This document shows positions 4,450 to 27,257 of a DNA stretch of 64,000 nt, in pieces (position 1 is the stretch's first letter; each line of letters starts with the position of its first letter). A program made the position numbers and the translations under genes. The notes beneath the pieces are model-generated. The model had not been told where the DNA came from, did no database searches, and saw nothing but the letters and a program-made list of their open reading frames with translations. Source of the DNA: Phycisphaerales bacterium (lineage in GTDB: Bacteria; Planctomycetota; Phycisphaerae; Phycisphaerales; UBA1924); assembly GCA_020846975.1 (NCBI GenBank), contig JADLCX010000067.1, forward strand, positions 1 through 64,000, written 5' to 3'.

Positions 4450-5931
4450 TCAGCGCCGGTCCTTGTCCGCCTGCTGCTGCGCGTCGAGTTCCGTGATGAG
4501 CAGGTCGATCCGCTGGATGAAGTTCTCGGGGTACGCGCGGATCCGCTGAGGGTTGATCGACTCGGCATACCGCGCGAGCAGGGGCTTCATCTGCTTCAGC
4601 AGCGACTTCCGGCGACCGCGCGCCTCGGTCCGCTCCCGATACCCGGCCGGCTGCCGCACCTCGACATCCAGGTACTGCTGCAGCAGCCGCGTGAAGTTCT
4701 CCTCCGCCTGGGCCACCTGGCGGCTCCAACTCTTCAGGATCTCCGTCGCCGCGCCCTTGACCACCTGGTAGTTCCGCGGCAGGCCCATGCGGTCCATCAG
4801 GTCATCCAGCGTGTCGGCGGTGCCCTTCGACAGCCCAAGCCGGAACGCCATCTCCGCGTTGAGCGTGAGCACGTCGTTGCCCCGGCCGCGGATGATGTCC
4901 TGGATCGCGTCGCGACGATCGTCCTTTCCGTCGTCGGTCAGCAGGATCTCGTCCGCCGATTCCGGCATCCGATCCAGAAACTCGGGCGTCCCGTTCTTGA
5001 ACGAGACCGAGAGCACGTAGTCGGCGCGGCACATCGCCGCCATGATCTTCTTGTCGTGCCCGCCCTGCTCGGCAAAGCCGAACGCCCGCGCCAGCCGCAG
5101 CGAGATCTGCTTCTCACGCACCACCGCGTCGCCCCGGCCGGCGAACAGCGTGTCCGCGTACCCGATCCCACCCAGCAGCCCCTCGCTGGTGAAATAGATG
5201 TCCTTCGCCGCAAACGGCAGGAACGCCGCGGAGCCCATCGCCTTGTTGATCCAACTCACCATCCGCGGCTTCTTGGGGATGCTGCTGTCCGTGCTCATCT
5301 TCTGGTACAGCAGGTCGGCGATCTTCCGCGCCGTATCCATCTGATCGAACGCGCCCTGGTCGTGCTCGATGTCCATCTTGTCCTCACCCTGGTGGGTGAA
5401 CTCGTGGTCGAACCTCATCACCAGCACGTCGGGCTGCTGCACCTTGATGTCCTCGTACACCTCCTGCATCGGCGTGATCGAGACATCGCGACCGAACTCC
5501 CCGCGCATGTCCAGCACGTAGACGCGCGGACCCTCGCCCGCCTGCGCGTTGGAGCCGGTGGCCGGCCTGGTCTCCTTCACCGCTTCGGGCTTCTTCTCCT
5601 CGGTCTTGGCCGGCGCGGGGTCCGTGCTCGCGGGAAGGTGCTTGATCTCCAGGATGTCGGCCTTGCTGTACTCCGTCTCGGCCTTCATCCCGGCGATCTC
5701 GACGCGAACCTTCACGATCGTTGCCGACTCGCTGATCAACTCACCCCGAACCTCGTTCCCGTTCCGGAAGATGATGAGCACGGGCTTCACGTCGGTCGCG
5801 GCCGTCGTCGGCTGGTCCTTCTTTGCATCCGACTTGCCGGTCTGCGCCATCGCCGTCGGAGCCGTCATGGCCGCCGCGCCCAGAGCCAGGCCCAGAACCG
5901 CCGCCATCGCCCATCGTGTCATCGGTTTCAT
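4450..5931 (-). CDS. Exported ClpP/NfeD-like putative serine protease, paralogue 2
   Basis: Same architecture as its downstream neighbour: signal peptide (MKPMTRWAMAAVLGLALGAAA to AMAQ), a beta-rich RNGNEVRGELISESATIVKV domain, a Pro/Lys/Glu linker, then a ClpP-like core of VYVLDMRGEFGRD, VLVMRFDHEF and AMGSAAFLPFAAKDIYF. The GSAAF serine aligns with ISCAA of the neighbour, but the SGGG oxyanion segment is replaced by DHEF. The protein is 493 residues with a helical, charged C-terminus. The ATG at 5931 is preferred over a GTG at 5946 because the signal peptide begins there and AGGG lies 8 bases upstream. A 12-base tandem repeat lies 60 bases before the start. Probably first gene of a two-gene unit. 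Confidence 0.6.
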   Translation of the reverse strand: MKPMTRWAMAAVLGLALGAAAMTAPTAMAQTGKSDAKKDQPTTAATDVKPVLIIFRNGNEVRGELISESATIVKVRVEIAGMKAETEYSKADILEIKHLPASTDPAPAKTEEKKPEAVKETRPATGSNAQAGEGPRVYVLDMRGEFGRDVSITPMQEVYEDIKVQQPDVLVMRFDHEFTHQGEDKMDIEHDQGAFDQMDTARKIADLLYQKMSTDSSIPKKPRMVSWINKAMGSAAFLPFAAKDIYFTSEGLLGGIGYADTLFAGRGDAVVREKQISLRLARAFGFAEQGGHDKKIMAAMCRADYVLSVSFKNGTPEFLDRMPESADEILLTDDGKDDRRDAIQDIIRGRGNDVLTLNAEMAFRLGLSKGTADTLDDLMDRMGLPRNYQVVKGAATEILKSWSRQVAQAEENFTRLLQQYLDVEVRQPAGYRERTEARGRRKSLLKQMKPLLARYAESINPQRIRAYPENFIQRIDLLITELDAQQQADKDRR

Positions 5932-5990
5932 GCGTGCATCCCTCACTGGTCAGACTTGCTCGTTCAGTTCCGTGTTCCGTCGCGATCCAA

Positions 5991-6029
5991 CCGCCGACTC
6001 CACCGCCGACCCCACCGCCGTCCCCACCG
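5991..6029. repeat. 12-base tandem repeat upstream of ClpP-like paralogue 2
   Basis: Three successive 12-mers CCGCCGACTCCA, CCGCCGACCCCA and CCGCCGTCCCCA, plus a partial fourth, lie between the nucleotidyltransferase stop and the ClpP-like start. Read on the minus strand, the coding direction, the block is a run of GG and GGGG tracts within the 5' leader. Confidence 0.85.
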
Positions 6030-6107
6030 GGAGACCCGTCGGCCGATCGACCCGTTCCAACCGCTCCGCCCGGAACCGGGCGGCGCTCCCTCCGACCCCG
6101 TACCACT

Positions 6108-7406
6108 TTAGACGTACAACCTCCGGGCAAGTTCCACGGCTTCGTTCTGGTCCCGGACTCTCCCCTCCAACTGGGCGTCATACACATCGTCCAAGACCCG
6201 CTTGAATGAGGGGCTCGGAGAGAACCCCGCCCCGATCAGGTCATTTCCATCCAGCAAGGGTGCCGGATTCAAGCCGATTCCATCCGATTTGTGTTTGCTT
6301 ATTGTCTGGGTAATCGAGATCAGGGCTTGTGAATCCGTCGCCCGGACGAGCTGGCTTGATCCAGCGAACCACGACGATGAGGCCCAGCGCTTCTGCCGCG
6401 CCACCGTCGCCGCGGACCACGCCCGCGTCAGATATTGGTGTCCGCGCAGGATCGCCGCGAGCTCGGCGCTCTCCTCGTTGCTCAGGCAGAGCGCGGCCCG
6501 CCAGCGTCGGCTCAGGGCGCCGATGTCCTCATCGCCCAATCCCGAGCCGGCCGCGCCGGTCCGGTCGAGCGCCCACGCGCCCAGCGGCACACCCACCGAG
6601 GGCTGCATGTGCTCGATCTGACGCAGGACCGCCGGCTCGACCCGCCGCGCCGCCTCGGTGAGCACGGGCGCGTCCAGCCCGAGTTGCTGGAGCAGTTCGA
6701 CCGCGTGGGCGCGCGAGGGATGCAGCAGAATCCGCCGCAGCTCATCGCCGATCCGCTCGCGGCTCACGCCCCGCAGTTCCGCCGCGTGGCGGGTCAGCGC
6801 GCCCGCGGTCGCCGGATCGATCGCGAATCCCAGCCGCGCCGCGAACCGCACCGCGCGCAGAGCCCGCAGGTGGTCTTCGGCCAGCCGTTTGTCCGGATCG
6901 CCCACCGCGCGGATCAGCCGCGCCGAGAGATCGGCCGCGCCGTTCACGTGGTCGATGATCCTCCCCTCTGCCGCCCGTTCCGCCGGCGTTGCAAGATCGT
7001 CCGGTTCCGCGAGCGGATCGAGGAACAGCGCGTTGATCGTGAAATCCCGGCGTGCGGCATCCTCCTGCGGCGATGAGAACACCACGTGGTCCGGCCGCCG
7101 CGCATCGCTGTACGGCCCATCGGCCCGGAACGTCGCCACCTCGACCGTCACGCGCTCCCCGCCCACCTGCTCGTGCACCAGCACCACGCCGAACGCCGCG
7201 CCCACCTCTGCCGTGCGGTTGAAAAGCTGCGAGATTCTCGCCGGGGTCGCGTCGGTCGCCACGTCGTAGTCCGTCGGCCGCAAGCCCAAGAGCGCATCGC
7301 GCACGCACCCGCCCGCGAAGTACGCGGTGTGCCCCGCCTCGCGCAGGCGGCGGAGGATCTGCGTGGCCGCGGCTCGTGCGGCGGCGGGATTGGCGGCTCG
7401 GGCCAT
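6108..7406 (-). CDS. CCA tRNA nucleotidyltransferase / poly(A) polymerase family protein
   Basis: Class II template-independent nucleotidyltransferase acting on RNA 3' ends, either CCA addition to tRNA or polyadenylation. In the 432-residue product the signature AGGCVRDALLG is at residues 31-41, followed by TDYDVATDATP with the metal-binding DxD at 46-48, then RRDFTINAL, an RLIRAVGDPDKRLAEDHLRALRAVRFAARLGF segment and ISRERIGDEL-like SRERIGDEL; this order is diagnostic of the PcnB/Cca family. No HD phosphohydrolase motif is visible in the C-terminal part. The ATG at 7406 begins directly before the conserved region; the frame upstream is unlike the family. It lies 20 bases after the AhpD-like gene, so the two may be cotranscribed. 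Which of the two activities applies cannot be told from sequence. Confidence 0.88.
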   Translation of the reverse strand: MARAANPAAARAAATQILRRLREAGHTAYFAGGCVRDALLGLRPTDYDVATDATPARISQLFNRTAEVGAAFGVVLVHEQVGGERVTVEVATFRADGPYSDARRPDHVVFSSPQEDAARRDFTINALFLDPLAEPDDLATPAERAAEGRIIDHVNGAADLSARLIRAVGDPDKRLAEDHLRALRAVRFAARLGFAIDPATAGALTRHAAELRGVSRERIGDELRRILLHPSRAHAVELLQQLGLDAPVLTEAARRVEPAVLRQIEHMQPSVGVPLGAWALDRTGAAGSGLGDEDIGALSRRWRAALCLSNEESAELAAILRGHQYLTRAWSAATVARQKRWASSSWFAGSSQLVRATDSQALISITQTISKHKSDGIGLNPAPLLDGNDLIGAGFSPSPSFKRVLDDVYDAQLEGRVRDQNEAVELARRLYV

Positions 7407-8160: not shown

Positions 8161-9849
8161 TCATGGGCAGCCGGCGAAGTAGGCCGCGAGGAAGTCGAAG
8201 ATGTCCTGGACGGAGATCCCGCCGACGCCGTTGATGTCGGCGCGAAGATCACCGCCGAAGTAGGCCGCGAGGAAGTCGAAGATGTCCTGCACCGTGACGC
8301 CGCCGGCGCAGTTGAAGTCGGCCGCGCAGAAGAAGAGCGTGGCGGGCTGGGTGGTGACGCTGATGGGCTGGTTGCACTCGGCGCTGCCGAGCACGCAGGT
8401 GTAGACGCCCGCATCGGCCGCGGTCGGGCGGATGATGATCATCGACCACCCCTGCGTGTTGAGCACGCCGTACTCCTCGGTCGAGCCGGAGCCGATGTCT
8501 GAGAGCGGCACACCGTTTCGGTGCCACTGGTACGTGATGTCTCCTCGGCCGGAGGCGTTGGCCGTGAAGCGGACGAAGAAGTCGGCCGTGCTGCTGCTGG
8601 CGGTGGCGGTGCAGGCGTTGATCGTGCGGCTCGCCGGCTGCGAGTCGATGTTGATGCCGGGGCAGGGGCCGATGGTCAGCATGCCGGGCCCGCGGTCGTC
8701 GGGGCTCCAGCCCGAGACACGCACCCACACGGGCACGCCGGCGGTCACCTGCATGCCGATGGTGCTCTGCACGGGGCAGGCCTGGCTGTCGTCGTTGCAG
8801 TCCACCTCGGCATCCGTGCAGCCCGCGTACGCCGAGAGGATGGTGTCGAAGTCGGCTCCGCCGCAGGTCGAGATCTGCGCGTAGTACGACTGGGTCGGGG
8901 TGTACCGGAACCACACGTCGTTGAACCCTCCGCAGCCCGAGAGGCCGTCGGTGTTCGCCCAGGAGGTGTCGAAGGCGAACGAACCCTCCCCGACCGGCGT
9001 GGCGGTGGCGCAGACGTCGTTGGCGGGCACGGGCACCGTCGGGACGACGCTCGGGTTGTACCAGAAACTGTCGCCGCCCTGCGGCGTGCTGTTCGCGTAG
9101 GGGTTGGGGAACGCGACGTACACGCCGTTGTCACCCTGCGAGAGGTCGTACGCGTAGTAGTTGTCCGCGGCGACATGGTCCGGGTCGCTCAACTCGCGCC
9201 CGTTCCACGTGTTGGTCAGGTACACGACGTTGTTGCCCACCGCCAGCCCGCGGCACGAGCCGTAGGCGTTGGGGAAGCTCGCCACCGGCGGCGGGGGCGC
9301 GATGCGGTGCTTTTCGCCGGTGTTCGGGTTGATCCGGTACAGCCCGGTGGTTCCATACTCCGAATACCCGTACAGCATTCCGTCGGCCGGGTTGCCGTCG
9401 AGCGCGAAGAACAGTTCGCTGGACGAGGCCACGGCCAGCGTGCACGCGCCGGTCTGCGTGTCGATGCGGTAGATCCCGCTCGGCGAGGCGTACTGCGCCC
9501 ACCCGTAGAGTTGACCGCCGGCGTAGCCGAGCCCGAAGATCGTCTGCGATGTCGGGGCCACGAAACTGGGGCTCCGGCCCGGGATGGTCACGTACAACTC
9601 CGTCGAGAACGTGCCGGTGGTGATGTAGACCAGGTTCTGCGGCGTGCAGGTCGCTCCCTGCACGAAGAACGAGAACCCGCCGAACCAGTTCACCGATCCC
9701 GGAAAGCCGGCGACCAGGTCGGTCTCGAATGTCAACGGGACGTTGTCAGGGTCGTAGCCATACTGGCCGACCACCAGCCGCGAAGTCTGGGCATTGACGG
9801 GCGCGGCCAGACAACAGGCCAGACCGACGAGGGCAAGAACGCTTTTCAT
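8161..9849 (-). CDS. Exported protein with Ig-like domain and GC-type dockerin tag
   Basis: The 562-residue product has a signal peptide (MKSVLALVGLACCLAAPVNA), a beta-rich N-terminal half that reads like a propeller-type sensor (repeated LxGYSEYGTTGLYRIN-like segments), a Cys-paired region, then an Ig-like segment (ITYQWHRNGVPLS ... DAGVYTCVLGSAEC). It ends with two dockerin-like units, ADFNCAGGVTVQDIFDFL and ADINGVGGISVQDIFDFL, closing in GCP. The loop position 5 acid is lost in both copies (A and V). The ATG at 9849 starts the signal peptide; GGAG lies upstream. A palindromic element occurs 186 bases before the start. The body resembles extracellular repeat proteins; its ligand is unknown. 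Confidence 0.78.
   Translation of the reverse strand: MKSVLALVGLACCLAAPVNAQTSRLVVGQYGYDPDNVPLTFETDLVAGFPGSVNWFGGFSFFVQGATCTPQNLVYITTGTFSTELYVTIPGRSPSFVAPTSQTIFGLGYAGGQLYGWAQYASPSGIYRIDTQTGACTLAVASSSELFFALDGNPADGMLYGYSEYGTTGLYRINPNTGEKHRIAPPPPVASFPNAYGSCRGLAVGNNVVYLTNTWNGRELSDPDHVAADNYYAYDLSQGDNGVYVAFPNPYANSTPQGGDSFWYNPSVVPTVPVPANDVCATATPVGEGSFAFDTSWANTDGLSGCGGFNDVWFRYTPTQSYYAQISTCGGADFDTILSAYAGCTDAEVDCNDDSQACPVQSTIGMQVTAGVPVWVRVSGWSPDDRGPGMLTIGPCPGINIDSQPASRTINACTATASSSTADFFVRFTANASGRGDITYQWHRNGVPLSDIGSGSTEEYGVLNTQGWSMIIIRPTAADAGVYTCVLGSAECNQPISVTTQPATLFFCAADFNCAGGVTVQDIFDFLAAYFGGDLRADINGVGGISVQDIFDFLAAYFAGCP
8176..8289 (-). repeat. Two identical 33-base repeats encoding the dockerin units
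   Basis: Bases 8176-8208 and 8257-8289 are identical over 33 positions and encode the QDIFDFLAAYF part of the two dockerin units. The same stretch recurs with a single mismatch at 22810-22842 in another dockerin gene. Confidence 0.85.
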
Positions 9850-10034
9850 GGGCCGATCTCCGAAAGGGTCCGAGGGTGAACACTGAAAACGATTCGACAT
9901 GGAATCTGGGCCAAGCCCTCCTCCGCGTTTCCGCGCCTCGGGCATGCCGGGAAGACGGACGCGGCGGATGTCAAAACGGATCAAGGCAACCGGAAATATA
10001 CTCTTGGGAGGGTGATTGGGCGAATAATCGTTGG

Positions 10035-10050
10035 AAAGTTTCAGAAATTT
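10035..10050. promoter_or_regulatory. Palindromic element, copy 1
   Basis: AAAGTTTCAGAAATTT contains the inverted repeat TTTC-A-GAAA. The same 16-mer, differing only in the central base, is at 11250-11265. This copy lies just beyond the stop of the prepilin-like gene and 186 bases before the dockerin/Ig gene, in an AT-rich island unlike the surrounding DNA. It is a candidate operator or promoter element. Confidence 0.5.
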
Positions 10051-10074
10051 TACAAGAGCGAAAAAAAGACCGAC

Positions 10075-11148
10075 TCATCGCGGAATGTCCCGGCCTTGAA
10101 CGCCCAGGCGGGTCGCCCAGAAGAAGGCCCGGTAGGCGTTGAACCCGCCCGGGGCTTGCAGGATGGACCCGTCGCCGTTCTCCAGCCCATCCCGCCCCAG
10201 CCCGTAGCCGTGCAGCGAGGATGAGAACGGCCGGTCGGGGTCTCCCAGGATCGAGTCCGGCACCCGCCACTCCCCCGAAGGGTCGAACACATCGGAAACT
10301 TCCGGGCGCGACGTCCGCGGATCGGTGAGCTCGTACAGCGTGGCCATCTTGATGCTCGACACGCTGCCGTCCACGGTCGCGAACCTCGTGGTGGCCTCCG
10401 GGTTGTTGAACATGGGCGAGTACGCCTCACGCCCGCCGTCTCGGGACTTGCGCGTGGGGCGCGAGAAGTCCATCCGCTCGAACACCAGCACCTTCGCCTG
10501 CGGCGAGGTGACGTGGTCGAGCCGGTTCCGCCGCCAGAGGCGACCGCCCGTGAACCGCCCCGCCGGCACCCACTGAGTGTCCCGGTACCGTTCCGGGGCG
10601 AACCAGAACGTGGGCGGGTACCAGTAGGAAGTGTCGAACATGAAGCCGTCCCGCGAGAAATCCGACATCCCGGAGGCCTTGGTGGCGTTCACCTTGGGCA
10701 GCAGCGACGCGAACCGCTGCCGCGCCGCCGTGTCGTTGGGGGCCACCAGCATGTCGCTGTAGAGGTTGTTACCCGAGATGTACTGCGTGATGAGGCTCGC
10801 CCAATGGGCCGCGAAGAGTTCGGTGGTCCAGTCCTCGTTGGCGAAATCCCACACCCACGCCCCGCCTCCGGGTGTTCCGTTCTGCGAGCGGGGCGCGACG
10901 ATGTCGTACCACGGCACGCCGTAGTTGTTCGGGCCGAAGGGGTTGACGAACGAGTCTCTCGAGTCCGCGGCGTAGCCGAACTGGAGCATTGCGCACTGGC
11001 GGAGGTTCGACAGGCTCACGGCGGACCTGGCCGCGGCCCTGGCCCTGGAGAGCCCCGGCATCACCAGGCTCACCAGCACCGCGATGATCGCGACCACCAC
11101 CAGCAGCTCGATCAACGAGAACCCGTGGCGGCGTGGCGGAGGCGACAT
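10075..11148 (-). CDS. Prepilin-type N-terminal cleavage/methylation domain protein
   Basis: The 357-residue product starts with the type IV prepilin signature: MSPPPRRHGFSLIELLVV, with cleavage expected between G9 and F10 and the conserved E14, followed by a hydrophobic helix to about residue 33. The remainder is a globular domain with a late FATVDGSVSSIKM segment resembling the DG motif of the pseudopilin-like proteins (DUF1559 type) common in planctomycetes. It would be processed by a prepilin peptidase and sit in the inner membrane or a type II secretion-like pseudopilus. The ATG at 11148 is chosen because the signature follows at once. A T7 run after the stop could help termination. The upstream region is shared with a divergent gene (11317). 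Confidence 0.82.
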   Translation of the reverse strand: MSPPPRRHGFSLIELLVVVAIIAVLVSLVMPGLSRARAAARSAVSLSNLRQCAMLQFGYAADSRDSFVNPFGPNNYGVPWYDIVAPRSQNGTPGGGAWVWDFANEDWTTELFAAHWASLITQYISGNNLYSDMLVAPNDTAARQRFASLLPKVNATKASGMSDFSRDGFMFDTSYWYPPTFWFAPERYRDTQWVPAGRFTGGRLWRRNRLDHVTSPQAKVLVFERMDFSRPTRKSRDGGREAYSPMFNNPEATTRFATVDGSVSSIKMATLYELTDPRTSRPEVSDVFDPSGEWRVPDSILGDPDRPFSSSLHGYGLGRDGLENGDGSILQAPGGFNAYRAFFWATRLGVQGRDIPR

Positions 11149-11249
11149 GGCGGCGTTCCCTTTCCGATGGTCGGTTCGCGGCCCGCGCACGCGGGCCAGC
11201 CGTCCCTGTAACCATACCGAAGATCGTGCTATTCGGACGCATCAGCAAG

Positions 11250-11265
11250 AAAGTTTCTGAAATTT
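11250..11265. promoter_or_regulatory. Palindromic element, copy 2
   Basis: AAAGTTTCTGAAATTT lies in the divergent intergenic region, 102 bases before the prepilin-like start and 52 bases before the start of protein A. It matches copy 1 in 15 of 16 positions, and ACAAG follows within a few bases in both. A regulator-binding site serving both directions is plausible. Confidence 0.5.
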
Positions 11266-11316
11266 CGGACAAGTCAAGTACGATGGGGTATCCTGTGGTC
11301 GGGGTTTCGGGAATGT

Positions 11317-12534
11317 ATGATGACCCAGATGGCGATGTCCAAACTTGTTGAGGTCCAGGCCCGGGCCGTGGAAGTCGAGGCGGTGGAGGTCCTGGGAGAC
11401 CTTCGCGCCGCCCTGAGCGAGTTGATCGCCGAGCTCCCGCCCCCCGTGCTTCGGGCGGTCGATCTGGAGCAGTCGCTCGGTCTGGACAAGAAACTCGCGT
11501 GGCAGATCTTCCGGGTCGTCCAATCGGCCCACCCGCTGGGCGAGGTGCACAACATCCCGGCGCGCTCGTCGGTGCGCCGGCTCCTGATCTCGGCACGCAA
11601 GCGACGGGTTTCCATGCGGGTCATCGACCGGATGGACACGGCGTTCGCGACCTTCGAGCGGTTCGTGGCCATGTACGCGGGCAGCCGCGAGTCGCTGGTC
11701 TCGGTCCTCAACGGCCTGGGCCAGCGCAAGGATGCGCCGTACGAGACCAGGCTCCGCAAGTCGCACTTCCGCACGGCATCGCAGCTCTGGGGCATCCACG
11801 CCCAGACGCTGATCCGGACCAGCATCTTCCACGCCCAGCCCGGCCCGGAGTTTGTACTCGACAGCGCGCTCATCCAGGCGGCGATCGGCCTGGAGCGGGT
11901 CCGTGTGAGCGAGGCGACCGACGTCACCATCATGATGCGCACCAAGGGCACGCCGCAATCCGCGGACGACGCCCCGCCGGCGCCCATCCGGCACCCCGCG
12001 GAGCTGTTGGACGAGTTCTGCACCGGGCCCCGACCGGAGTTGCCGCCGCACACCGAGGGCGGCGCCGAGGGCGAGAGCAAGTTGAGGTTGCCGCCCGGGC
12101 GCACGGGCGCGGCGACCGTGTACTGGATGCAGTGGCACGAGGCGATGTCCAGGGCGCGCTCGACCGATTATTACGGACGAACGTTCGTCACGATCCCCAC
12201 GCAGACGCTGGTGTGGGAACTGCTTCTGCCGGCGGGGTGGACCGATCCCAGCACCGCGCGGACGTGCATGTACGCCTGCCGCGAGCACCCCGAGCAGGCG
12301 TTCGCGGAGCGTGCGGCGGAACTCATGCCGCAGCAGGAGAGCGTGCAATACCTCGGCGCGCTGGACTCGGTGCCGCTGCTGGGCGGATCGCCCAACCACG
12401 CCAGCGCTGTCCGCCGGGTGATCGAGAAACTGGGTTGGACGGGCACTCGCTACGACGTCTACCGCGCCTCGGTGCAGTACCCGCTGCTGCACACGATGCT
12501 GGCCCTGCGCGTGGACGCGGCCGAGGGGGCCTGA
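11317..12534 (+). CDS. Unknown family protein A (possible HTH-containing regulator)
   Basis: No known family was recognised for this 405-residue, apparently cytosolic protein with no signal or membrane segment. It is a distant homologue of the protein at 25935-27257: both have an N-terminal L(G/N)LD...Q segment that looks like a helix-turn-helix, a helical G(S/G)S(R/Q) block, RLRxxxFR...SI...PG, a central (L/A)LL(D/E)xFCxxPxPxLxxHT block, and a C-terminal part ending in VQYPLLHTMLALRV versus VEFPIWRAGYCLAF. Start choice is uncertain: ATG codons at 11317, 11320, 11329 and 11335 are all possible and no strong ribosome site is present. It is divergent from the prepilin-like gene, with a palindrome between them. 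DNA binding is an inference. Confidence 0.72.
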   Translation: MMTQMAMSKLVEVQARAVEVEAVEVLGDLRAALSELIAELPPPVLRAVDLEQSLGLDKKLAWQIFRVVQSAHPLGEVHNIPARSSVRRLLISARKRRVSMRVIDRMDTAFATFERFVAMYAGSRESLVSVLNGLGQRKDAPYETRLRKSHFRTASQLWGIHAQTLIRTSIFHAQPGPEFVLDSALIQAAIGLERVRVSEATDVTIMMRTKGTPQSADDAPPAPIRHPAELLDEFCTGPRPELPPHTEGGAEGESKLRLPPGRTGAATVYWMQWHEAMSRARSTDYYGRTFVTIPTQTLVWELLLPAGWTDPSTARTCMYACREHPEQAFAERAAELMPQQESVQYLGALDSVPLLGGSPNHASAVRRVIEKLGWTGTRYDVYRASVQYPLLHTMLALRVDAAEGA

Positions 12535-12717: not shown

Positions 12718-14604
12718 ATGCTCACACTCGAACAACTCGCCAGCGACTGGCTCACGCCGCGCCGAGAGGAAGATTTCAGCCTTCCCGCCATCGCCAACCC
12801 CACCGGCGCGGTCCAGGCCGCGTGGGACGTCTGCGGCATCCAGAACTGGGTCTGCGCGCCCACCGGCATGGCCACACCGACCGCGCTGCTCTTCATCACC
12901 CGCGACGGCTCGCTCCGCCGGTTCTCGCGGTCGGTCGAGTACCGCTGGAAGGCGTACGAGATCGAGCGCCGCGCCGACGGGGTCTCTTCCACGCTCCGCA
13001 TGATGGCCGGAAGGCCGGGCGTCATCCAGCGCGTGAAGTTCGAGCGTGCGATGCAGGCCCACCTGGTCTTCACAGGCCTGCCGCGGGTCTGGCGCTTCAC
13101 CGACTACTGGAACATCCCGCCCGAGGATGTGCCGATGCTCAACGTCCGGCACGAGGGCGATCGGTTCGTGCTCGAAGACACCAAGACCTTCGGCCGCGCC
13201 GAGTTCTGCACACCCGGCCATCATCGCGTGTACACCGATCTCTCGGCGTGGCTCGACGGCGACGAGCCCGTGGAGCGGGGGGGGCGTGGGCGCATCGGCG
13301 TGGCCACGTTCGAGGTTCGCGCCGGCGATGAGGTCGCGTGGTACGGCCTCCAGGGCTGCGAGCGCTGCGGGGCCGTGGACGTCGAGGCGGAGTGGGAATC
13401 CGCCCGCGCGCAGTGGGACCGTACCTGGAACGCCGCGTTCACGCCGGGTAACTCCGAGTTCTCCGGCCACTTGCCCGCCCGTCGCGGCCGCCTCGAGCGG
13501 CTGTACGACATGTCCGTGCTCACGCTGTTGATGACCCGGCGTGTGCTCCCCGCGCTCTCCGGGCGCGCCGGCGTGGCCACCGGCGGGCAGTGCATCTGGA
13601 ACGAGCAGCCCCGGCCCCTGCCCTGCGCGTACGTCATCGGCGGTCCCGAGGGCGCGCCGACAACCAGTTTCTTGTGGGAACTCGAGTTCCAGTCGCCCGT
13701 GCTCGCACGGCTCGACCCCGTGGTCCTGCGCCATCAACTCGAAGCCTTCATGCGCGTCGACCTCCACCACCACTGGGGCGTCGAGACCGTCAGCGGGCGC
13801 GGCGCGGGCATGGGCTACGGCGTCAACGCCGGCGCGTTCCTCTCCTGCGTGCGCGATTACGTCCGCATCACCGGCGACCGCGACTGGGCGGTGCGGAACC
13901 TCCCCTATCTCCGTACCTGCGCCCGCCCGGAGTTGACCGACTACGGCCACTACCAGCACATCCTCGAGTGCGTGAGCAGTTACGAGCACACCATCGCCTC
14001 GTTCAACGCCCTCAACGTCAAGGGTCTCCGCTTCCTCGCCGAACTCACGGGCGAAGTGGCCTACGCACGCCAGGCCGGCGAGTTGGCCGCGCAGGTGCGA
14101 GTTCTCTACGCCGGCGGCCCGTTCGCCTGCCGCCAGCCCGACGGCTCGCGCCGGATCGTCAAGTCCATCCTCGACTTCGTCTACGTCGGCCGCTGCATGG
14201 AGTCCGACCTCCCGCCCGAAGTGAAGGCCGGCATGGTCGAGTTCTTCCGCTCCGAACTTCAGACTGACGACTGGCTCTACGCCCTCTCTCCCTGCGACAC
14301 CAACGCCCTGACGCCCGACCTGCCCTCGTTCCAGACCTACCGCGCCGATCACCAGGCCACCGGCTCGTACGACGGGTGGCCGGCCCACGCCGCGTCGGTG
14401 CTGGCCCGCTTCGGCCACCGCGAGGCCGCGCTGTCGTGGCTTGATCGCCTCGAGCGGCTCACTCTCGAAGGCCCCTTCGGCCAGGCCCACTACATCCATC
14501 CCGACGGAGCCCGCAAGGCGAGTTTCTTCAACGGCAACATGTACTTTGAGGCGGCGGGCTGCGGGTACGCCGCGACGTTGCTCGACGACTTCTCCGGCCT
14601 CTGA
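12718..14604 (+). CDS. Six-hairpin (alpha/alpha) glycosidase-like protein
   Basis: A 628-residue protein with no signal peptide. The first ~220 residues are beta-rich; the second half is helical and resembles (alpha/alpha)6-barrel glycosidases: SVLTLLMTRRVLP, HHHWGVETVSG, RDYVRITGDRDWAVRNLPYL, and a closing YDGWPAHAASVLARFGHREAAL and YIHPDGARKASF. Repeated Trp/Asp/Glu-rich helix tips are consistent with a carbohydrate-active enzyme, but the catalytic acids were not assigned and the exact GH family is unclear. The ATG at 12718 follows a CCACACCC leader without a clear ribosome site. It may act on intracellular oligosaccharides; this is inference. A 720-codon open frame on the opposite strand is a shadow. 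Confidence 0.6.
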   Translation: MLTLEQLASDWLTPRREEDFSLPAIANPTGAVQAAWDVCGIQNWVCAPTGMATPTALLFITRDGSLRRFSRSVEYRWKAYEIERRADGVSSTLRMMAGRPGVIQRVKFERAMQAHLVFTGLPRVWRFTDYWNIPPEDVPMLNVRHEGDRFVLEDTKTFGRAEFCTPGHHRVYTDLSAWLDGDEPVERGGRGRIGVATFEVRAGDEVAWYGLQGCERCGAVDVEAEWESARAQWDRTWNAAFTPGNSEFSGHLPARRGRLERLYDMSVLTLLMTRRVLPALSGRAGVATGGQCIWNEQPRPLPCAYVIGGPEGAPTTSFLWELEFQSPVLARLDPVVLRHQLEAFMRVDLHHHWGVETVSGRGAGMGYGVNAGAFLSCVRDYVRITGDRDWAVRNLPYLRTCARPELTDYGHYQHILECVSSYEHTIASFNALNVKGLRFLAELTGEVAYARQAGELAAQVRVLYAGGPFACRQPDGSRRIVKSILDFVYVGRCMESDLPPEVKAGMVEFFRSELQTDDWLYALSPCDTNALTPDLPSFQTYRADHQATGSYDGWPAHAASVLARFGHREAALSWLDRLERLTLEGPFGQAHYIHPDGARKASFFNGNMYFEAAGCGYAATLLDDFSGL

Positions 14605-22797: not shown

Positions 22798-25335
22798 TTA
22801 GCAGCCGCCGAAGTAGGCGGCGAGGAAGTCGAAGATGTCCTGGACCGAGACGCCGTTGGGGGCGCCGGGGCCGGGCGCGCTGTCGTTGGTGTTGGCGCAC
22901 GCATCGGTGGAGAAGTAGCCGGTCAGGAAGTCGAATATGTCCTGGACGGAGATACCGCCGGGCGCTCCCGGGCCGGGGGCGGACTTGTTGTAGTTGCCGC
23001 GGCAGCACGGGGCGGTGAAGCTGAAGGGTGTGCAGGCCGAGCCGCTGCCGCCGAAGGTACGGTTGGCGCCCGAGCAGGCAGCGGGGGAAGTGATGACGCA
23101 GGAAGAGCCGCAGCAGCAGGCGCCGTTGGGCTGCGGGCAGGGGTTGGGCGTGCAGGAAGTTCCGGCGCCCTGGGCGGAGCCGGCGCACGCGGCGGCGAGG
23201 ACGAAGGTGCAGTTGCCCGCGGTGTCGCAGCAGGCCTCGGGCTGCGGGCAGATGACCTGGGCGCAGACGCTGAGGTCGCCCTGGTAGGTTCCGCCGGCGG
23301 TCGCGCAATCGGCCGAGGAGAGGACGGAGCAGGTGCCATCGGCCGCGCAGCACGCGCCGGGGCAGCGGTTGGGGGTGCAGGTGGTGTTGTCACCCTGGTA
23401 GGCTCCGCCGACGGTGACATCCACGCACGCACCCTCGACGGAGAGGAAGCAGGCGCCGGCGCCGGGGACGCAGCAGGCACCGACGGTGGCGAGGGTGACC
23501 TTGATCTGGTAGCTGTTGTCGCCGCTGTCGCACGGGACGCCGCCGAAGTCAACCGGCAGGATGTTGATGCGGAAGCCGCCTCCTGCGGTGACCTGGACAT
23601 CGAGGATGTTGTCGTTGGCGCAGTAGGGGAGGAGCGCTCCGCCGAGGAAGGTTCCGTTGTCAACGCCGGGGTTGCAGGAGCCTCCGAAGAGGTTGGTGAT
23701 GGCCGGGAACTCATTGATGAACTGGACGGTGTACCAGGTGGTGCCGTCGCCATTGGTGTCGGGCACAAGGCCGTTGAGCGACCAGAAGTCGAAGTCGCGC
23801 AGGGTGCCGACGTTGTCGGAGAGACCGGAGAGGACATCGCCGAGGTTGAAGGTCATCACGCCCGCGCCGTCGCAGGCGCTGTTGGTGCTGAGGTTGGCGC
23901 CGCAGGGATCCGTCTCGGTGACGACCGCGCCGCCCATGTCGGGCGTGAGGGAGAGGTCGGCGGGGATCTCGCACTGGTCGCTGGCGCACGGCACGACGGT
24001 GGGCGTATCGCCCGCGCCGGTCACGGAGAGTTGGAAGGTTCCGGTGGCGAGCTGGAAGCCGTAGACGGCGATGTAGTAGTTGACGCCCGCCTCGGCGACC
24101 CACGTGACCAGGGAGGGATCGCCGGCATCGGCATCGGTGCCCTGGTCGCAGGCGCCGGGTTGTCCGGGCGTGCCAGGTCCGGTGTCGTTGTTGGCGACGC
24201 AGTTCAGGCCGCTGTGGTCATCGCCGGTGCAGGTGCCGCAGTAGACATTGAGCACCGTGTCGAAGGTCGTCTGGGCCTGTGTTCCACAGGTCCCGGCGGT
24301 GAGGGTCTGCGTGGTGGCGCTGTTGACCACGTACCAGAGCGTGGGCGCGTTGACGGGGTTGGCGCCACAGAAGGGGGTGGGGAGGAGCAGGCCGCGGGCC
24401 GTGCCGACCCCCGTCACCGCACCACCGACGGCGATGGACTCGGCCGTCGAGCAGCGGGCGTTGGGGAGCGGGGGCAGGATGCACGCGTTGGGCGCGGTGG
24501 CGAGGCTGAAGCACCAGGCCGTATCGAAGCCGTTCACGCGGAACGCGGCCGTGGCGAGGTAGTCATCGATGAGGGTATCGGTGCTTCCCGCGGGGTCGTT
24601 GTGGCCGAACTGGATCAACACGCGGTCCCGGTTGGGGCTGGTGGCGGCGGCGGAGTCGGTGTGCCAGCGCCAGCGACTGCCGAAGGGCCAGGGCGTGACG
24701 CCGTCGATATCGAACGAGGCTCCGTTGATCTGGAGCCAGCGGCACTCGCCCGCGGCGACGTCGAGGCCGGTGGGGCGAAGCGGATCCGGGGGTAGCGTGA
24801 CGGTCCAGACATAGCCGGGGACGCTGCCGTTGGCCGGGCCGCGGACCAGGCCGTTGGTGGTATCGACACGCATGGAGTAGAGGACGGTGAGGGCGACCCC
24901 GTCGGAGGGCGCGCCGCCCATGTCGGCGTACATGGTGATGTCGAAACCTTCGTTGGCCACGGCGGGCTCGGTGCCGCCGCCACCGAGCGCCGAGGTCTGG
25001 TACTGGCCCCAGAAGCAGATCGAGGTGAGCGTGCCGGCGGCGCCGAAGGTCACATCGTCCTGGGTGTAGAAGCCGTTACCGCCGCCGTTCTCGGCGCGAT
25101 CGCTGGAGAGCGAGCCCTGGTTGGTGGCGACGAGCTGCTGGCAGTTGGCCGCGGGCTGGGTGCAGCCCGGGCCGCGGTTGACGATTCCGCCGGGCGCGAC
25201 GATGACGGGGTTGGGGTTGTAAGGAAGCCAGTCCAACGTGGATGGGCTGGGGACGGCAGGCTGAGCCAGGGCCATGCCGGTGCAGGCGACGAGGCCCGCG
25301 ACTGCGAAAGCAGAAGAACGACACAATCCGACCAC
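22798..25335 (-). CDS. Large exported protein with GC-type dockerin tag and Cys-rich repeats
   Basis: An 845-residue protein. The start is set by an AGGAGG six bases before a GTG at 25335, which opens a signal peptide (VVGLCRSSAFAVAGLVACTGMALA). The body has an N-terminal beta-rich half and an Asp/Cys-rich region with repeated DTVLNVYCGTC and CGAN... patterns, then about four Cys-rich repeats of the type GACC..G.C......C....G.Y.G. The last 65 residues hold two dockerin units, each with an inserted SAPGPGAP in the Ca loop, before VQDIFDFL; the protein ends in GGC. The insertion is unusual among the tags here. Catalytic function unknown. The gene converges with mraY. Confidence 0.78.
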   Translation of the reverse strand: MVGLCRSSAFAVAGLVACTGMALAQPAVPSPSTLDWLPYNPNPVIVAPGGIVNRGPGCTQPAANCQQLVATNQGSLSSDRAENGGGNGFYTQDDVTFGAAGTLTSICFWGQYQTSALGGGGTEPAVANEGFDITMYADMGGAPSDGVALTVLYSMRVDTTNGLVRGPANGSVPGYVWTVTLPPDPLRPTGLDVAAGECRWLQINGASFDIDGVTPWPFGSRWRWHTDSAAATSPNRDRVLIQFGHNDPAGSTDTLIDDYLATAAFRVNGFDTAWCFSLATAPNACILPPLPNARCSTAESIAVGGAVTGVGTARGLLLPTPFCGANPVNAPTLWYVVNSATTQTLTAGTCGTQAQTTFDTVLNVYCGTCTGDDHSGLNCVANNDTGPGTPGQPGACDQGTDADAGDPSLVTWVAEAGVNYYIAVYGFQLATGTFQLSVTGAGDTPTVVPCASDQCEIPADLSLTPDMGGAVVTETDPCGANLSTNSACDGAGVMTFNLGDVLSGLSDNVGTLRDFDFWSLNGLVPDTNGDGTTWYTVQFINEFPAITNLFGGSCNPGVDNGTFLGGALLPYCANDNILDVQVTAGGGFRINILPVDFGGVPCDSGDNSYQIKVTLATVGACCVPGAGACFLSVEGACVDVTVGGAYQGDNTTCTPNRCPGACCAADGTCSVLSSADCATAGGTYQGDLSVCAQVICPQPEACCDTAGNCTFVLAAACAGSAQGAGTSCTPNPCPQPNGACCCGSSCVITSPAACSGANRTFGGSGSACTPFSFTAPCCRGNYNKSAPGPGAPGGISVQDIFDFLTGYFSTDACANTNDSAPGPGAPNGVSVQDIFDFLAAYFGGC

Positions 25336-25934
25336 AATGCACCTCCTCACGCCGTCTGGCGTGATCCTCAAGGAAAGGAACTGGGCCGCACGGTGGTACA
25401 CATCCGCGCGGCGAATGGAACCTCCACATCCTGTCGCAGAACGCGGCAGGACCAATAATGGAGGTTAACCCAAGTTTTGGAGGCGTGCCCAAGAAATCGG
25501 CACGGTGTGAGTAAACGGGGGAGCACGAGGCTCACCGAGCGTGCGCTAGTTCGAGGCGGGCCGGATTGTTTGCAAGGCGTTTGCAACGAGGCCGGGCGGG
25601 AACGTGTGATGGTGCCGCGACGGAGCGTGTGAAGGCACGGTTGGTGGGCCGGGGCTGCGAACTATTCGAGTGTCGGCACCGAGCGTCCAGCCGGGATGGA
25701 CTCGGCTGCGCGCCGCATCGGCAAAGATGCCGACGCCACGGGATGCGATGCCAAGCGCGAAGGATTGTCGAGTGGTGGATGCGAGAAGCGGGGTGCCCGA
25801 ACCGAGTGTGGAAAAGGGATTCGGACGCAAAACCTGCGCAATTGGGTCGTATCTTGGGGGCTCTGTAGAGAAATTGGCCCGATCCGAGCGTGCGGATCGC
25901 TTGGCAATCACCGGATCAGTTGGTAGTCTTCTGG
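25336..25934. other. Long intergenic region with repeats
   Basis: About 600 bases between divergent genes. It holds a directly repeated GTTTGCAA (around 25567-25582), the dispersed hairpin repeat at 25716-25739, and the stem CGATCCG/CGGATCG at 25880-25899. No protein of recognisable type is seen; short frames inside appear to be noise. Promoters of both flanking genes must lie here. Confidence 0.5.
25716..25739. repeat. Dispersed hairpin repeat, copy 2
   Basis: CATCGGCA, AAGA, TGCCGA and then CGCCAC: the same unit as 22771-22794 with 21 of 24 bases identical and the stem largely preserved. It lies about 200 bases before the start of protein B. Confidence 0.6.
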
Positions 25935-27257
25935 ATGGTGATGACGCCCTCCATAGGAACCAAAGGCACAAAGTTCGTCGAGTCCGACCTGCTGGCGCTG
26001 GGGCCGGGGTTGACGCGGACGGAACTCGCGGAGGCGGAGCAGGTGGCGCGGCGGCTGCACGGTGAGTTGAAGGCGTGCGTGGCGCTGTTGCCGGAAGGAG
26101 AGCGGGGTGGGAGCGCGATGAGTCGGTCGCTGAACCTGGATCGCGCGACGTGCCAGCGGCTGGTCGCGACGACGAGCAAGCCGGATGCGGGCGCTGGAAC
26201 GCTGGTGCAGTTGCCGGGCGTGCAAGGGCTTCGGCAGTTTCTGGGCGCGATGCGGCTGCGGACGCATGATGAAGATGGGCAGGAGCAGCTGACGGCGGCG
26301 GAAGCGGCGGTTGATCGGCTGGAGACGTTGATCGGCGAGCTCGGGGGGAGCCAGCGGCGGCTGCGGGCGCGGCTGGCGGGCGGCGGCACGGAGCCGGAGG
26401 CGCGCGGCGAGGCGGCAAATGACGATGCGCGGCTGCGCGAGACGCTGTTCCGAGCGGGCGCGGCGGTGACGGGGCGGTGGTCGGAGACGTCGGTGTCGCT
26501 GTCGATCATTCAGCCGACGCCGGGGCCATCGGGCGCGGCGGGGGAACCGGGATCGACGGCGACGACGCAGACGGTCCGGCTGCGGGCGGTGTTGGGGCAC
26601 AACGCGCGGGTGGATGCGGTGCCTCTGGAGGTCGGGAGCGCGAACCCGCTGGATGCTTCCGCGGGCGGAACACCCGCGGCTCATCGTGCGCCGGCGGCGC
26701 TGCTGGAGGGGTTCTGCTCACGACCGATGCCGCGGCTGGTCTCGCACACGGCGGGGTACCGGGTGGTCCACGTGATCGATTCGGCGGAGCCGGGGCCGAT
26801 CGAGAACGCGGATGTGGTGCTGGCGGACCGTGAGCCGGTGGTGGATCGGCATCCCGCGTTGATGACGCCGCCGATGGGCGAGGTGTGGTCGCTGATCAAC
26901 TTCCCGTCGCGTCGGCTGCTGATGGATGTTTTCCTGCACCGCGAACTCGCGGAGCGGTGTCAGGCCTCGCTGGAGGTGCACATGTGGACACCCAACGTGG
27001 TGCAGCACGCGGCGACGCGGTGGTCAACGCGGTTCCCCGGCGGGCCGAGGCTGCTCAACCTGGGGAGCGGGCTGGAGGGTGCGGCATCGCCGAGTTACGC
27101 GCGGCACGCGGAGCTGGTGGCGCACATGTTCGCGCGGATGGGGTTTGATGCGGGCTCGTTCGTGGGTTACCGGTGCGAGGTGGAGTTCCCGATCTGGCGC
27201 GCGGGGTATTGCCTGGCGTTCGACTTCGGGGCGCGCGCGGCGAACGGGGAGAAGTGA
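25935..27257 (+). CDS. Unknown family protein B, distant homologue of protein A
   Basis: A 440-residue protein without signal or membrane segments. It matches the protein at 11317-12534 along most of its length: LNLDRATCQRLV (helix-turn-helix-like), VDRLETLIGELGGSQRRLRARL, RLRETLFRAGAAVTGRW...SI...PG, AALLEGFCSRPMPRLVSHT, and the tail GYRCEVEFPIWRAGYCLAFDF. B has an insertion-rich centre (Gly/Ala/Thr-rich) that is shorter in A. The start could be ATG 25935 or 25941. It stands alone between divergent dockerin and convergent asparagine synthase genes. Its function is unknown; DNA binding by the N-terminal part is a guess. Confidence 0.7.
   Translation: MVMTPSIGTKGTKFVESDLLALGPGLTRTELAEAEQVARRLHGELKACVALLPEGERGGSAMSRSLNLDRATCQRLVATTSKPDAGAGTLVQLPGVQGLRQFLGAMRLRTHDEDGQEQLTAAEAAVDRLETLIGELGGSQRRLRARLAGGGTEPEARGEAANDDARLRETLFRAGAAVTGRWSETSVSLSIIQPTPGPSGAAGEPGSTATTQTVRLRAVLGHNARVDAVPLEVGSANPLDASAGGTPAAHRAPAALLEGFCSRPMPRLVSHTAGYRVVHVIDSAEPGPIENADVVLADREPVVDRHPALMTPPMGEVWSLINFPSRRLLMDVFLHRELAERCQASLEVHMWTPNVVQHAATRWSTRFPGGPRLLNLGSGLEGAASPSYARHAELVAHMFARMGFDAGSFVGYRCEVEFPIWRAGYCLAFDFGARAANGEK

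Follow-up and report, generated by a model that had tools for sequence, protein, structure and literature searches.

Two matching palindromes as candidate operators of a regulator encoded beside exported-protein genes in a Phycisphaerales bacterium

Within the first 64,000 nucleotides of contig JADLCX010000067.1 from a Phycisphaerales bacterium (this whole stretch is called the window), two matching palindromes lie on either side of a gene for a prepilin-type protein, which raises the question of which protein, if any, uses them. A first-pass annotation had proposed a model in which both are bound, and the surface genes jointly controlled, by the product of the neighboring gene, protein A, or by another regulator. 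This proposal is supported by comparative sequence evidence, which points to protein A. We consider it probable that both palindromes serve protein A as operators and that this protein, a putative one-component DNA-binding regulator, controls its own gene and the prepilin and dockerin genes. Protein A is favored as the binder because its relatives carry TTTC-gap-GAAA palindromes upstream, because the gap follows the predicted recognition helix, and because the divergent neighbor of members without an HRKLAWQ helix is usually an exported-protein gene. The locus is composed as follows.

11317 to 12534, + strand: protein A, 405 amino acids (aa), a member of the regulator family; predicted recognition helix within DKKLAWQIFRVV.
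10075 to 11148, − strand: prepilin-type protein, 357 aa, divergent to protein A, with an N-terminal methylation motif.
8161 to 9849, − strand: exported protein, 562 aa, with weak immunoglobulin-like matches and a GC-type dockerin end (NF041540); the dockerin gene.
11249 to 11265, no strand: candidate operator 2, GAAAGTTTCTGAAATTT, in the divergent region of protein A and the prepilin gene; relatives have a similar upstream architecture.
10034 to 10050, no strand: candidate operator 1, GAAAGTTTCAGAAATTT, between the end of the prepilin gene and the dockerin gene, which it precedes.

The helix in DKKLAWQIFRVV would mediate binding of a protein A dimer to each site. Bound at 11249 to 11265, the dimer would act on both the promoter of protein A and the divergent promoter of the prepilin gene; bound at 10034 to 10050, it would act on the dockerin gene that follows the prepilin gene. 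A single regulator would thus set one surface cassette. Direct binding, dimerization, and co-control by protein A are what we infer from the sequence comparisons below.

The palindrome pair is confined to one locus

The two sites share a 17-nucleotide stretch, GAAAGTTTCWGAAATTT, with one variable center base (16/17 bases identical). Both copies were found where the first-pass annotation had placed them, as AAAGTTTCAGAAATTT at 10035 to 10050 and AAAGTTTCTGAAATTT at 11250 to 11265, the shared stretch being one base longer leftward. Identity stops at the 17-nucleotide edges. Upstream of protein A, the TTTC-gap-GAAA palindrome occupies 11254 to 11262, with a gap of 1. As had been described, the sites form AT-rich islands in GC-rich DNA (32% and 42% GC in the 50-bp islands, compared to 68% in the window). 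The pentamer ACAAG, which had been noted after both sites, is indeed present but offset by two bases between them, and probably lies outside the site; a motif extended by ACAAG was rejected for this difference in register. An extracytoplasmic function (ECF) sigma promoter reading of GAAACTTTC was considered by eye and gave no consistent −10 box.

The gene coordinates agree with the layout proposed earlier. The site at 11250 lies between the divergent starts of the prepilin gene (11148, − strand) and of protein A (11317, + strand), and the site at 10035 is flanked by the prepilin gene, which ends at 10075, and the dockerin gene, which starts at 9849 (− strand). The prepilin gene product scored above the cut-off for the N-terminal methylation motif (PF07963, 33.5 bits; TIGR02532, 30.6 bits), and the dockerin gene product reached 31.6 bits with NF041540 (cut-off, 29).

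At up to three mismatches, the window contains only these two places, each also on the reverse strand, and 0.02 were expected in dinucleotide shuffles. A search of the own genome (102 contigs, 4,197,742 bases) that left the center base free gave exactly two occurrences, both at this locus. These counts exclude the objection, anticipated in the first-pass annotation, that the motif is frequent by chance. When up to three mismatches were allowed genome-wide, nine strand matches were obtained; four are the known two places, and the remaining five compare with four for a reversed control pattern. A wider regulon of the window motif was rejected, as matches at up to three mismatches do not exceed the control rate. 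The other anticipated objection, absence from other promoters, holds for the exact sequence. It does not weigh against the model, because each paralog has its own operator, so that the site of protein A is expected only at its own locus.

A repeat that arose by duplication or chance and has no regulatory role would be consistent with two copies only 1.2 kb apart and with flanks that cannot be aligned. Given the shuffle expectation and the analogous sites conserved over whole classes of the phylum, we regard it as highly improbable.

The palindrome gap follows the predicted recognition helix

Family genes were grouped by the residues of their predicted recognition helix, and the upstream palindromes were then compared. 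We read 147 nonredundant genes, 130 from the genome set plus the window and 17 from further contigs; duplicates were removed before counting by identical protein segment. Genes with the helix HRKLAWQ had TTTC-1-GAAA upstream in 38/40 cases (shuffled, 0.30) and TTTC-3-GAAA in 0/40. For genes with D[K/T]VLASR (the D-K-V-L type), TTTC-3-GAAA was found upstream of 27 of the 29 (shuffled, 0.05), or of all 29 when the region was 260 bp, and TTTC-1-GAAA upstream of none. Other helices accompany other palindromes, namely TTTC-6-GAAA forms, TTTG-2-CAAA, and TGTTGATCAACA. Among all 147 genes, 30 have a low-GC palindrome with a score of at least 8 within 200 bp, compared to 2.25 in shuffles. Furthermore, when HRKLAWQ loci were collected by protein search (n = 30), the site was present within 300 bp in 28, including 16/16 genes new to the analysis, and only two further copies of TTTCNGAAA occurred in these loci. 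On the family tree, the five operator types need 14 changes, compared to 48.5 when shuffled.

For members outside the class, predictions on partner C termini, palindrome score, and the helix-gap rule were fixed before looking. The test set comprised 29 of the 30 phylum-survey profile matches from outside the order, one being left out at a contig edge. The helix-gap prediction held: the D-K-V-L-x-S-R members L270, L273, and L274 all have a 3-base gap (3/3), and L284, with the helix NKVFASR, has a 3-base-gap palindrome twice. The HRKLAWQ helix was found in 0/29 of this set. A palindrome score of at least 7 was reached in 8/29, compared to 1.25 in mononucleotide shuffles. We take the outside-class result as stronger support for a putative helix-to-operator code than the grouping within the order.

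These data also bear on the idea that another DNA-binding protein, such as a global regulator, uses the palindromes and that protein A is a bystander. Binding by protein A is what we infer, and the half-site letters TTTC and GAAA do recur in several operator types. However, the genome holds only two sites, operator type tracks the helix of the adjacent family gene and not the genome, and the rule holds across classes, which makes a global regulator distinctly improbable. As a separate observation, a perfect palindrome of 34 bp, far longer than the other operators, lies 99 bp before the family gene at L020.

Divergent neighbors are usually exported-protein genes

Signal peptides and PEP-CTERM-like or dockerin-like ends were called by custom regular expressions, and open reading frames (ORFs) by GC-position bias, so that single calls may err. 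Complete divergent frames ended PEP-CTERM-like or dockerin-like in 25/28 cases for D-K-V-L members and 31/51 for the rest (HRKLAWQ members are treated below), compared to 26/243 control frames. One fixed rule was shared by these counts, the control, and the HRKLAWQ count; the rules for calling partners differ between the separate counts in this work. Loci whose divergent frame was absent or off the locus were left out (1/29 D-K-V-L, 27/78 of the rest, and 13/40 HRKLAWQ). Judged from these frames, the usual divergent neighbor of non-HRKLAWQ members is an exported-protein gene. The divergent gene of protein A itself is of exported type (prepilin).

The own genome (G000; 4.2 Mb) contains a very large set of tagged exported proteins, with 149 GC-type dockerin matches. 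All ten of its family members lie no more than 3.1 kb from such a match (density null, P = 5e-7; same-contig null, 0/20,000 draws); at 1 kb, dockerin neighbors were found for 4/10, and the excess was not significant on the same-contig null. According to ORF maps, in which some starts are uncertain, all ten are divergent to an exported-type gene, seven times dockerin/PEP-CTERM and three times prepilin. The prepilin cases are those at protein A, C22, and C63. Prepilin as the general partner was rejected, since the majority of partners across the order belong to the PEP-CTERM-like or dockerin-like type.

Outside the class, 15/22 divergent genes look exported by a crude signal-peptide rule, compared to 68/247 background frames, in a comparison made post hoc. 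Several of these exported partners (L266, L272, L282, L283, and L293) share a C-terminal end close to SNxLxATTP, possibly a different sorting or secretion tag. At L261:4504-7303, a prepilin frame (4504 to 5616) overlaps a frame with a GC-type dockerin end (4943 to 7303) in a different reading frame; either two genes are present, or a single gene is frameshifted, or the assembly is in error.

Operator copies point to candidate targets

The exact D-K-V-L operator, AGTTTC-3-GAAACT, occurs at 16 sites in 11/16 genomes, 11 of them at the regulator gene itself. Among the five remaining sites, two, in G006 and G102 (species of one genus), precede by about 125 bp a PEP-CTERM gene whose TIGR02595 match barely exceeds the cut-off; the other three, in G115, have no clear target. 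In both G006 and G102, the gene divergent to the regulator (L030 and L086) is not of exported type, and the unlinked PEP-CTERM protein is about 49 to 56% identical to the divergent partners of L108, L111, L089, L103, and L092. In this genus, regulator and partner are thus unlinked and both still carry the operator, so that the partner appears to have kept its site on separation.

Another operator, TTTCTNNNNAGAAA, was found at 12 sites in 5/7 genomes: four at family genes, five before exported-protein or prepilin genes, and three inside frames. The five candidate target genes encode two sulfatases (Pfam), two signal-peptide proteins, and one prepilin, the last being divergent to the tenth own-genome member. 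At the C63 locus, a second TTTC-gap-GAAA site was sought and not found. The exported sulfatase genes, directly preceded by TTTCTNNNNAGAAA, are in G012 and G015 (L244:1594-3012 and L242:1-1497). The G015 site touches the first predicted start codon, making its placement relative to the gene unsure. The sulfatase sites hint that some family members may control polysaccharide-degrading surface enzymes. Extra sites in G149, G033, G043, and G115 were rejected as targets, as most lie inside genes or lack a clear target, as were one- and two-mismatch sites in G024, G185, G146, and G091, which are located inside frames.

The exact HRKLAWQ operator (13-mer) is present at 10 sites in 9/15 genomes, nine at the gene itself and one inside another frame. 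HRKLAWQ regulators thus look solo, usually with one exact operator per genome, in their own promoter, and with no exported partner by our calls. That a self-site alone is common in these relatives fits the proposal that protein A binds operator 2 only, for autoregulation, and that operator 1 is a leftover copy or is used by another paralog for the dockerin gene. Operator 1 is indeed about 185 bp from the dockerin start, and the dockerin promoter is weak. We nevertheless find this restriction unlikely, considering the near identity of the two sites and that no other own-genome paralog examined carries this operator.

Promoter positions and the sign of regulation

Only sigma-70-like boxes were scored, on both sides of the palindrome. 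At the window operators, the following candidates were chosen by eye.

11266 to 11294, + strand: candidate promoter of protein A, CGGACA, 17 bp, TATCCT; weak; −35 begins 8 bases past the operator center.
11220 to 11248, − strand: candidate prepilin promoter, TTGCTG, 17 bp, GATCTT; weak; −35 begins 10 bases from the center.
9995 to 10024, − strand: candidate dockerin promoter, TTCGCC, 18 bp, TATATT; weak; −35 begins 19 bases from the center.

In HRKLAWQ and D-K-V-L genes, the best −35 starts 10 to 19 bp from the palindrome center, mostly 10 to 12. It points toward the regulator in 27/38 HRKLAWQ genes and toward the partner in 18/29 D-K-V-L genes; toward the D-K-V-L regulator, the distance tends to 19 or 30. 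The HRKLAWQ promoter consensus is TTGTTTCaGAAACAgTtcTTGAAA, about 16 bp, and a TATgcT-like box, with the start codon 6 to 8 bases on in 27/38. Because so few bases separate this box from the start codon, the HRKLAWQ mRNA is probably leaderless.

A palindrome at a fixed distance upstream of −35 is the usual position of an activator, and it suits contact with RNA polymerase better than a road block. Activation therefore seems somewhat likelier than repression, because in two subgroups the palindrome keeps a fixed, short distance to a −35-like hexamer downstream of it and does not cover the core promoter. Alternatively, protein A could be an autorepressor that, bound to both sites, keeps its own promoter and those of the prepilin and dockerin genes shut in the absence of an inducer. 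We hold this tentatively as a possibility, since the −35 and −10 boxes beside HRKLAWQ operators are near consensus, with no activator needed, and the outer half-sites of the HRKLAWQ consensus overlap the −35 hexamer TTGAAA (by eye). The fixed position of the palindrome core upstream of −35, on the regulator side for HRKLAWQ and on the partner side for D-K-V-L, argues against it.

Protein A family and predicted structure

The protein A family is found in no curated database searched here. Protein A matched no family in Pfam or NCBIfam, and none among the LacI, GntR, TetR, MarR, and other Pfam one-component profiles at E values up to 10. A 39-row family profile gave no convincing match to Protein Data Bank (PDB) sequences (best E, 0.33). 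Protein A and its relatives were found by single-sequence search, and it is matched full-length by the family profile, of which it is itself one row. The single-sequence search detected the family in 41/61 genomes (own plus relatives), with nine matches in the own genome; the tenth member there, on contig C63, was discovered beside a palindrome. By profile search, 118/201 genomes of the order contain the family, and 24/294 genomes drawn across the phylum were positive, 16 of these outside the class. Protein A is on a long branch of the tree, with L005 and L004 as its nearest rows. One HRKLAWQ member (L170:5935-7185), with its operator 27 bp before the chosen start, is on a contig labeled Krumholzibacteriota; the gene may have been transferred between phyla, or the contig may be mis-binned.

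The AlphaFold model of protein A has a predicted local distance difference test (pLDDT) score of 79, and its N-terminal part alone of 85. In the model, a long helix is followed by a helix-turn-helix (HTH)-like pair, 47-54 and 58-69, predicted at high confidence, with the second helix within DKKLAWQIFRVV. The modeled C-terminal domain (153-402) resembles Ost1/ribophorin I (6ezn; VIA Z, 12.2; root mean square deviation, 3.1; 182 aligned) and the N-terminal domain of M1 aminopeptidases (Z about 9), at identities of mostly 5 to 10%. The sequence of protein A does not contain HExxH, the zinc motif of M1 aminopeptidases, and the catalytic part of an M1 peptidase is also missing. No function is implied by the predicted fold.

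A speculation to which we give little credence is that every member specifically senses the exported protein with which it is paired. Its Ost1/M1-like C-terminal domain would bind the partner polypeptide before export, or a fragment of it, in the cytoplasm; transcription of both partner and regulator would then be adjusted by the N-terminal domain. Surface proteins would be regulated individually by such export-feedback pairs, in which operator, recognition helix, and partner would coevolve, and the solo HRKLAWQ members would have kept autoregulation and lost the partner.

Observations that weigh against operators of protein A

Several results speak against the proposed role of protein A. Its HTH call comes from the AlphaFold helix order only; the best match of the N-terminal model among PDB folds has a Z of 5.6, the noise range for helical models, and no HTH regulator family was prominent in the fold lists, a result that excludes nothing. 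Only 2/39 family members touch Pfam HTH models, which are generic, and weakly (E, 0.04 and 0.09). The helix groups are largely clades too, and helix versus gap offers only two independent evolutionary contrasts, which are not significant and too few for a test. None of the five sought operator types is present in 49/147 members. As to partners, complete divergent frames with a PEP-CTERM-like or dockerin-like end numbered 0/27 for HRKLAWQ members and 0/19 outside the class, where the prediction failed. At the window operators, all three candidate promoters are weak matches. Finally, the nearest relatives of protein A carry other sites, of the TTGTACAA type in L005 and TTTC-2-GAAA in L004; the pairing of protein A with its own site therefore rests on the family rule and on the uniqueness of the site.

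Relation to known systems

The layout of the family operators, a palindrome just upstream of −35 in the regulator's own promoter, resembles that of lambda CI and class II activator promoters. The likeness meant here is one of layout.

A system of PrsK/PrsR and a sigma-54 site has been described for proteobacterial PEP-CTERM genes (Haft et al. 2006, PMC1569441), and an RpoN-dependent case of PEP-CTERM gene control is also on record (PMC9850573). PrsK/PrsR is similar to the protein A family in that a regulator and a conserved upstream site were proposed from comparative genomics for C-terminally tagged exported proteins. The protein A family differs from PrsK/PrsR in that sites are specific to single members, as partners usually are, and in that the promoters look sigma-70-like. 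PrsR-type receiver, sigma-54 interaction, and Fis-type DNA-binding domains were not found in protein A by the Pfam and NCBIfam searches. Local regulators of the LacI family, according to Francke et al. 2008 (PMC2329647), likewise have one operator per paralog, are mostly autoregulatory, and have small regulons. They serve mainly carbohydrate uptake and catabolism, whereas the predicted targets of the protein A family are surface proteins. Moreover, protein A has no sequence relation to LacI in the libraries searched, and its C-terminal domain resembles other folds. In the open-licence literature, judged by titles and abstract openings, we found no description of such a family in Planctomycetota and none of planctomycete control of PEP-CTERM-like or dockerin-tagged surface proteins. 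Local autoregulators with palindromic operators are known; those of the protein A family appear to serve surface proteins for the most part.

These bacteria have numerous surface proteins that are PEP-CTERM-like or dockerin-tagged, and for many of them the family offers a candidate regulator, operator, and target, readable from sequence. With its apparent helix-to-operator rule, the family is a natural set for studying joint change of recognition helix and DNA site, and the genus in which regulator and partner are split opens the link between regulator and target to a direct test.

Further features of the window

A second family member is encoded in the window, again divergent to a dockerin protein.

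25941 to 27254, + strand: second family member, helix DRATCQR; start codon chosen by rule.
22801 to 25464, − strand: stop-to-stop open frame for a GC-type dockerin protein, oriented divergently from the second family member.

Downstream of protein A, on the same strand, lies a gene for a 628-aa protein (12718 to 14604, + strand), a possible operon partner with no Pfam or NCBIfam match.
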